Assembly: GCF_001693275.1 (NCBI RefSeq)
Contig: NZ_CP016477.1
Location: 1 to 64,000, forward strand
Reading direction: 5' to 3'
Source: Picosynechococcus sp. PCC 7117
Lineage (GTDB): Bacteria > Cyanobacteriota > Cyanobacteriia > Cyanobacteriales > MRBY01
DNA: 64,000 nucleotides
The first letter of the stretch is position 1; every line of letters starts with the position of its first letter. Positions 10,491 to 28,176 of the stretch are shown in pieces. Under the pieces are notes generated by a model. That model ran no database searches, had not been told where the DNA came from, and saw only the letters and a list, made by a program, of their open reading frames with translations. The position numbers were made by a program, and so were the translations under genes.

Positions 10491-10631
10491 AGGGGGATTG
10501 TCGTTGATGACAAAACGCTGGCTTCTTCTTTTACCTTAAGGGTTGCTTTGGGGCTGTGGGGGCAGGCGTTAGAATTGTTATCAGAAAAGTCGCAGTAAGA
10601 CTCCGCTGTTCTAGGGCGGTGATATAAGATG

Positions 10632-11054
10632 ATCGCCTGACGCGAGGCAGAAGCAATTCCAATATCTAGGCATTTTGCTACACTGAATTCTAGCGGATAG
10701 GGTAATCAACCGCTCTAAAAACCCAGTAGCCTCACGGCTCTACGCTGAACCTTGACAATCAAAGATATCGGGTTCTATCCAATAGTTCTAGGTTCCCCCG
10801 TTCGGCTGAGCTCACGCGGAAGTCTCACAGCCGAAGCCTGTGGATAGGTAAAATCTTTGCAGGAACTAGACGACCAGCATTTGAAACAAAGCGTTTCAAG
10901 TCAAACAAACATTGGACAAATCCAACTACCCAGGGGCACTGGGAAAGTAACGCTTGGGGAGAGACCCACCTCTGGTTAGGGCTTCGCAAGGAATCCTAGG
11001 TAAGTGGACTCGCTGAACCAAGAATCCTCTCGCCTTTAGGCAGGGGAGTGTCAA
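10632..11054 (+). mobile_element. Transposase-less IS200/IS605-like element with a structured RNA body (HEARO/omega-RNA candidate)
   Basis: No protein frame is credible here. The right end (11027-11054) is a hairpin with arms CTCTCGCC and GGCAGGGGAG followed by GTGTCAA, the form of right ends in cyanobacterial IS200/IS605 elements, which are cut after TCAA. The left side has a short hairpin GCCT/AGGC at 10635-10648. Between them hairpins are packed closely: AGCGG/CCGCT (10692-10714), GTAG/CTAC with inner GCC/GGC (10726-10743), a nested stem CAAAGAT/ATCTTTG, TATCC/GGATA, TTCGGCTG/CAGCCGAA (10760-10859), TTGAAAC/GTTTCAA (10881-10899), TTGGA/TCCAA (10912-10925) and CCCAG/CTGGG (10929-10943). This fits a guide-RNA element of the IscB (HEARO) or TnpB kind that lost its protein. 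Ends and class are inferred by eye. Confidence 0.5.
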
Positions 11055-11209
11055 CTTTGTGAATTGAGCATGACAATAGTATGAAGAAATATCCCGGTCT
11101 TTCTTCTGGGCTTAGAGAAAAATTTTAAATTTGGAGGGGGTTTGGGAAAATAACGTAAGATCAAAATACCGTTTTCTTTTCACGGCCAATGTTTTTGTGG
11201 GGAACCTCA
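11055..11209. other. Intergenic stretch right of the IS200/IS605-like end
   Basis: This AT-rich stretch separates the element end from the next small gene. It presumably carries the promoter for the small gene and the AAA ATPase, but I could not pick out a convincing sigma-70 pair. Together with the 140 bp left of the element (10491-10631), it belonged to a normal intergenic region of about 300 bp before the element was inserted. Confidence 0.35.
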
Positions 11210-27762: not shown

Positions 27763-28155
27763 GGGGCCGCAACGGTTTCGACAGGTTGGCGAAAGCTTCC
27801 ACTGTGATGCAGGTCGAGAGTGGGTCTCCTCTCGCAAATCAAAGATCCAAACAAAATGTAACTGCGAACAACATCGTTCCTTTCGCTCGCAAAGCTGCTG
27901 CTGTAGCTTAATAAGAACACCTTAACTTAGGTTCGAGCATTCATAATTCGACTCCGTTAAGGATTATGACTAAACCCCCAACGGATGCTCTCTAGGAATA
28001 CATCTGGTTTGCACTAGAGCTAAGACTAGACCAGAGATTCTTGGCGACTCGGAACAAGCAGTCGTTCCCGTTCTGAGGATTAGAAGGACTAAACCTGTGA
28101 ATGAGCTAGGGGTGAATACCCAGTTTGGACAGCAGTTCGACTCTGCTCGGCTCCA
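27763..28155 (+). ncRNA. ssrA: Transfer-messenger RNA (tmRNA)
   Basis: tmRNA rescues stalled ribosomes and tags the unfinished protein for proteolysis. The 5' end GGGGCCGCAACGGTTTCGACAGG and the 3' end CAGTTCGACTCTGCTCGGCTCCA are the conserved tRNA-like half-molecules; GGGGCCG pairs with CGGCTCC to make the acceptor stem. The CCA tail is not fully encoded. The tag frame reads ANNIVPFARKAAAVA and then TAA at about 27909, close to known cyanobacterial tags that start ANNIV. The one-piece layout is normal for this group. The 3' end is followed by a clear terminator. Confidence 0.97.
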
Positions 28156-28176
28156 TTTCATTTAATCAGTTACAAC

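Follow-up and report, generated by a model that had tools for sequence, protein, structure and literature searches.

Closest described systems

TnpB is a CRISPR ancestor. Its guide RNAs (omega-RNAs) are generally reported to derive from the transcript of tnpB, the canonical omega-RNA being processed from tnpB mRNA (PMC10278001). The omega-RNA of ISDra2 features a scaffold of 116 nt, with pairing between nucleotides −5 to −3 and −103 to −105, and a 5′ part, from −231 to −117, that is dispensable for cleavage (PMC10097598). RAGATH-18 (RF03064) is the guide RNA of IS607 TnpB (PMC11061315).

HEARO (RF02033) and IS605-orfB-I (RF03065) are likewise structured RNAs of IS200/IS605-like elements. In IscB systems, the guide is located at the 5′ end of the RNA.

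With the PATEs of Haloquadratum, tnpB-less IS605-type elements are already known (PMC3119063). They are mobile and protein-less, carry IS605-like near-terminal palindromes, cause no target duplication, and attract palindromic secondary inserts. Some of them are simple core deletions, and no conserved RNA is described in PMC3119063.

The element reported here lies in a window of 64,000 nt, the whole stretch of DNA that was analysed. With the ISDra2-type omega-RNA (PMC10097598) it shares a scaffold that ends at the right terminus and a guide that would be the right flank, the arrangement of stems 1 to 4, a pseudoknot of a stem-1 loop with the nucleotides just before the guide, and TTAY/TCAA ends. 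It differs by the lack of tnpB in cis, an apparent promoter of its own, a pseudoknotted 5′ domain of about 140 nt, and a broken tnpB frame. With PATEs it shares mobility, lack of protein, palindromic ends, insertion without duplication, and secondary inserts, whereas the family described here has a conserved RNA with an internal domain that the tnpB elements examined lack.

Limits and mobility of the element

The mobile element occupies positions 10582 to 11054 of the plus strand (473 bp) and is flanked on the left by TTAT. These limits, and insertion 3′ of TTAT without target duplication, can be stated because a genome of the same genus (G002) carries both flanks contiguously: query segments 1–843 and 1316–2661 join at G002:C1:11704. 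The empty site reads ...TTTTTAT followed directly by CTTTGTGAATC..., or, in longer form, ...AGAATTTTTAT joined to CTTTGTGAATCGAGC... In addition, G002 contains four copies at other sites with 81–86% identity to the window element, which agree with the same limits: all four follow TTAT, start with C[AG], and end in GTGTCAA. The features of the element's ends are:

10578 to 10581, plus strand: TTAT target or TAM-like site, seen in the G002 empty site and before four of four G002 copies
10582 to 10691, plus strand: left end, with a subterminal hairpin at about 10603–10619 (CCGC..GCGG)
11048 to 11054, plus strand: GTGTCAA right terminus, scaffold end and TCAA cleavage site

An earlier note on this DNA had placed the element at 10632–11054 and called it immobile. 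Its right end stands, as does the right-end hairpin (11025–11047) that it saw directly before GTGTCAA (11048–11054), whereas the true start is 10582. The left hairpin that it proposed at about 10632 (GCCTGACGCGAGGC) is not kept in the four G002 copies; the conserved one is that at about 10603–10619, which shows compensatory changes in an alignment of these copies. The empty site and the dispersed copies demonstrate that the element is mobile in this lineage.

Among related copies, TTAY followed by C[AG][AG]AAA is found upstream of 39 of 157, against 1 of 157 reversed controls, in a scan that misses many copies because their left ends diverge. The right terminus is [T/C]GTCAA in nearly all full copies read. 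Subterminal hairpins occur at both ends—the right one covaries (helix 12), and the left one carries the compensatory changes—together with a short fixed target, insertion without target duplication, and a TCAA-type right cleavage site. No open reading frame for a Y1 transposase (tnpA) is present inside the element. There is no frame of at least 60 aa between 10490 and 11189, and all six frames average 5–7 stops across the family, in line with the absence of a protein frame reported earlier. The element is a non-autonomous, tnpB-less IS200/IS605 (IS608-like, TTAY/TCAA) element; the earlier assignment to a transposase-less IS200/IS605-like type is borne out by the empty site and by full TnpB elements with common ends.

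Conserved RNA structure

The conserved structured RNA spans about 360 nt, from 10692 to 11054. The stems proposed earlier cannot be claimed from the window sequence alone, because folding of the single sequence gives no signal (z −1.07; 19 of 100 shuffles fold equally well), and thermodynamic stability is left out of the evidence. They are established by covariation over 38 homologues, collected in an alignment (A1) with a mean column identity of 64%. The structure of 69 pairs, hand-defined and partly derived from the same alignment—and therefore favoured over slid controls—has 96.6% of cells paired in A1 and a covariation score of 0.425, compared with 0.170 after shuffling and at most 0.090 for slid partners. 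Two-sided changes occur in 42 of the 69 pairs, with a shuffle mean of 28.3 and 0 of 500 shuffles as high, and can be seen directly in the alignment. The features of the 5′ part are:

10676 to 10684, plus strand: candidate extended −10 promoter element TGCTACACT, motif TGnTAnnnT
10692 to 10872, plus strand: 5′ RNA domain, consisting of the P1 hairpin (10692–10714) and a double pseudoknot, as judged by helices 3–6, P1 covariation, and matches of covariance model R1
10798 to 10836, no strand assigned: palindromic insert of about 38 nt (TTCGGCTGAG...CAGCCGAA), of ambiguous exact phase, located in an apical loop within the 5′ domain

The 5′ domain has a length of about 140 nt, to which the window copy adds the 38-nt insert. 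In A1 numbering, its double pseudoknot is formed by helices 79–85/173–179 and 93–101/161–168, crossed by 107–111/186–190 and 157–160/180–183. P1 covaries between GCGG/CCGC, CAGG/CCTG, GTGG/CCAC, and GAGG/CCTC. Of 108 distinct upstream sequences, 72 contain TGnTAnnnT ending 5–9 nt before P1 (2.5 on average after shuffling), so that the elements appear to carry their own promoter, unlike an omega-RNA derived from tnpB mRNA.

Comparison of the window copy with the G002 copies yields identities of 94–100% for the 5′ domain and 94–100% for the omega-RNA core, as against 63–84% for the left end. This contrast suggests that the RNA is under selection; gene conversion between copies could also play a part. 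A TnpB-derived remnant in the sense of decay, as the earlier note had also considered, does not fit an RNA that is conserved and covaries next to a drifting left end. Closely related is the reading as a passive MITE, in which TnpA-driven movement depends on the DNA ends alone and the structure of the RNA is left over from the past. The lack of a gene agrees with it, as do the known PATEs, whose ends suffice for mobilisation in trans (PMC3119063), but compensatory changes are found at dozens of internal pairs across divergent subfamilies, the promoter is positioned, the core is more conserved than the left end, and at 64% mean column identity the copies are not all recent or closely related; a passive MITE is very unlikely.

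A large pseudoknotted 5′ domain beside an omega-RNA is also a trait of IStrons, and the 5′ domain could accordingly belong to a self-splicing intron by which the element is cut out of transcripts. However, neither group I nor group II introns match at E ≤ 5, and the left end outside the RNA drifts, though the 5′ splice site would sit there, which makes a minimal IStron highly improbable.

The palindrome at 10798–10836 is ruled out as a part of the omega-RNA: it is missing from the four G002 copies and is a secondary insert, pieces of which recur at three other places of its own genome. Short interspersed palindromes of the TTCGGCTGAGCTCACGC... type are recorded for the window (10798–10836), where the insertion is in the loop of the solo element, and for L003, L004, and L005. 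Relative to the G002 copies, the TnpB element in the same genome as the window (L246) has a similar 24-nt palindrome (GACTCGACTGAGCTCGCCGAAGTC) in its left end. These inserts recall small repeats described in Haloquadratum, for which IS605-type elements are the target (PMC3119063).

In addition, an invariant UUGAC (10750–10759) could pair with the terminal GUCAA (11048–11054) in competition with the loop pseudoknot of the 3′ domain. Being invariant, this long-range TTGAC/GTCAA pairing (helix 2) is neither supported nor refuted by covariation, and its alternation with the covarying loop pseudoknot represents a possible switch between two folds.

The 3′ domain and the predicted guide

The 3′ domain carries the following features:

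10923 to 11054, plus strand: omega-RNA core (helices 8–12), for which alignment shows homology with tnpB elements at their 3′ end
10929 to 10943, plus strand: stem 1 of the core
10935 to 10938, plus strand: loop GGCA, pairing with UGUC at 11049–11052 to form the guide-proximal pseudoknot
10953 to 10957 with 11018 to 11022, plus strand: stem 2 of the core
11025 to 11047, plus strand: right-end hairpin of the core
11055 to 11074, plus strand: predicted guide CTTTGTGAATTGAGCATGAC in the flanking DNA, from TnpB biology

On a Stanieria plasmid and at further loci, tnpB elements have 3′ ends that match the last 105–130 nt of the window element. At these tnpB loci, the DNA that matches the core encodes the C-terminus of TnpB (..GTYAWGE..LNQESPRL*), and the same frame reads ..LGERPTSG*GFARNPR*VDSLNQESSRL* in the window: The C-terminal codons of TnpB are legible, with two stops upstream. 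As read from the sequence, the right end is tnpB-related, with a broken frame and retained RNA stems. The guide-proximal pseudoknot with the stem-1 loop pairs in 36 of 38 sequences, GGC[A/G] facing [U/C]GUC with A–U in 32 of 38 and G–C in 5 of 38, and the end of the omega scaffold coincides with the right transposon end. By sequence and structure, the 3′ domain is a TnpB-type omega-RNA core, which supports the idea of the earlier note that a guide-type RNA takes its guide from the DNA just outside an end, here the right one. In the G002 empty site, the sequence beside TTAT matches the first 10 nucleotides of the predicted guide and deviates by one mismatch, at position 11, within the first 20.

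An IscB/HEARO or IsrB omega-RNA, favoured in the earlier note, would also be protein-less, structured, and bounded by IS605-like ends. However, a search of Rfam 15 yields no family at gathering score, and HEARO, IS605-orfB-I, and introns are without a match at E ≤ 5. No open reading frame for an HNH-containing IscB lies in the element, and related RNA is found at tnpB ends instead. With this Rfam null and a core homologous to the tnpB 3′ end, HEARO/IscB is rejected, and the residual probability of any such RNA is negligible. The guide-RNA idea of the earlier note is thus largely right, and its HEARO assignment, left boundary, and immobility are wrong; no other RNA family scores above gathering, an empty site exists, and the stems covary.

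RAGATH-18 is a TnpB-type guide RNA too and gives a weak local match at 10953–11024 (23.6 bits, E 0.064). This candidate is rejected: The score compares with a gathering threshold of 44.9 bits, and the match is not repeated in 14 related loci. RAGATH-18 also differs by its IS607 ends and AGGAG target motif. Elsewhere in the window, 27763–28158 is an ordinary tmRNA gene with the tag peptide ANNIVPFARKAAAVA.

Distribution of the family

Relatives are found by sequence search in 65 of 100 related genomes. A gapped motif of the conserved 5′ part yields at least 107 loci in species-representative genomes, almost all labelled cyanobacteria; a pattern scan of viral contigs (IMG/VR) yields none. The covariance model R1, built on the 5′ domain, finds the RNA in 136 of 293 genomes sampled from the same order, where a single genome can contain as many as 21 copies; in a phylum-wide sample, 43 of 291 genomes match, 41 of them from the same order. 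The family is an old and abundant one that is for the most part restricted to one cyanobacterial order, and its R1 matches comprise several divergent subfamilies.

The divergent subfamilies (L217–L245; e.g., in G144, G118, G263, and G251) have right ends that are longer, for example AGTATGTCAA, and 5′ domains of other kinds; some genomes contain about 20 copies. In the phylum-wide sample, two genomes outside the order, G312 and G350, belong to the same class and have weak 5′-domain matches (11 and 3 copies, respectively; E ~1e-5). Loci L130 and L138 place the RNA on contigs labelled as Candidatus Gracilibacteria and Chloroflexaceae MAGs, which may reflect transfer or a binning error.

Probable supply of TnpB in trans

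None of 60 covariance-model loci has tnpB within 1.5 kb. Among the 107 pattern loci listed, none has tnpB in cis; four have any tnpB in the sequence retrieved around them, at the closest about 1.2 kb off and on the opposite strand. Copies with a full core are also without tnpB. A simple core deletion of an IS605 element would account for the ends, which match those of the TnpB element, yet the 5′ RNA domain is present in no tnpB locus examined.

The genome that carries the window has seven TnpB-domain matches. An intact TnpB element of 1397 bp with an open frame of 432 aa lies on the minus strand of G000:C1, with its TnpB at 2764375–2765595 and its right end at 2764357. This right end is 86% identical over 56 nt to that of the window element, TTAT adjoins on the left, and the left end is identical in 60 of 60 nt to two solo copies of G002. 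As inferred from these sequences, this element would be the obvious source of TnpB acting in trans; elsewhere in the same genome (C1:1717097) lies a gene for a Y1 transposase. The four G002 copies (L057–L060) have near-identical RNA and different left-end types, one of them identical to that of the TnpB element, and left ends appear to have been exchanged between elements.

Across the 293 genomes, with six TnpB candidates per genome scored and a threshold of E ≤ 1e-60, the matching TnpB clade occurs in 124 of 136 RNA-bearing genomes and in 77 of 157 others (Fisher p ~1e-15, ignoring phylogeny and transposon load). Several of the 12 RNA-bearing exceptions have only broken or partial clade copies, and G002 and a few others have only distant TnpBs. 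G002, with its four solo copies, contains no partner-clade TnpB at E ≤ 1e-60, only other TnpB clades, and no TnpB gene adjoins a right-end match on its contig 3.

These exceptions bear on the reading that the RNA serves another protein—a domesticated Cas12/TnpB relative or an unrelated binder of the 5′ domain—and merely inherited its omega core. An intact partner-clade TnpB is lacking in RNA-bearing genomes such as G002, G290, and G291, and the strongly constrained 5′ domain has no counterpart in tnpB elements. The ends, the target site, and the right terminus, however, are common to TnpB elements, and it is the TnpB clade that co-occurs, TnpB being the protein profiled; a different partner is quite unlikely.

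A decoy or regulator of TnpB, that is, a guide-RNA parasite that sequesters TnpB or competes against the native omega-RNA of TnpB, would fit the extra 5′ domain missing in tnpB elements and the up to 21 copies per genome facing few TnpB genes, and pieces of TnpB mRNA can inhibit cleavage (PMC10278001). Against this, the guide-proximal pseudoknot is maintained by compensatory change, as is the exact end of the scaffold, which would be expected if targeting by the guide is important. This role is unlikely.

Proposed mechanism

The element is probably a non-autonomous transposon with a promoter-driven guide RNA as its sole gene product, which TnpB uses in trans to retain the element. The computational support consists of mobility, the ends, the conserved RNA structure, the promoter motif, and the matching TnpB element; from there, we infer transcription, TnpB binding, cleavage, and the role of the 5′ domain. 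Transcription would start at about 10691, pass 11054, and continue into the flank, yielding the scaffold plus the guide CTTTGTGAATTGAGC..., and read-through by RNA polymerase past the right end would provide each insertion with a guide of its own. A TnpB produced at another place in the cell would bind and trim the solo RNA in trans. The TnpA transposase, also in trans, would excise the element and leave a resealed site in which TTAT is followed by CTTTGTG...; TnpB would then cut this TTAT-plus-guide site, and recombination with the sister chromosome would restore the element.

The least certain step is the contribution of the 5′ domain. Its conservation is not explained by TnpB guide function alone, because the 5′ part of the ISDra2 omega-RNA is dispensable (PMC10097598); the simplest guess is that the pseudoknotted domain probably serves to stabilise or present an RNA whose source is not tnpB mRNA.

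Significance

In the open-licence literature, PATEs are the only precedent found for tnpB-less omega-RNA families. Within this literature, a widespread family retaining the guide RNA alone, with an added, strongly covarying pseudoknotted 5′ domain, appears to be new. Tentatively, and with rather less confidence than in the mechanism, it may represent an old, large class of cyanobacterial RNA-only elements, or guide-RNA satellites, in which a promoter-driven new 5′ domain and an omega core exploit TnpB in trans, the 5′ domain adding a function unseen in described omega-RNAs, such as recruitment, RNA stability, self-processing, or control of TnpB.

If true, guide and nuclease would prove to be separable in nature, as in CRISPR, with many guides per effector. 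This raises the questions of whether the nuclease of a transposon can serve many guides in trans, by what means an element without a nuclease is retained, and what role a constrained 5′ extension has for a compact RNA-guided nuclease—the last of which bears on the engineering of such systems.
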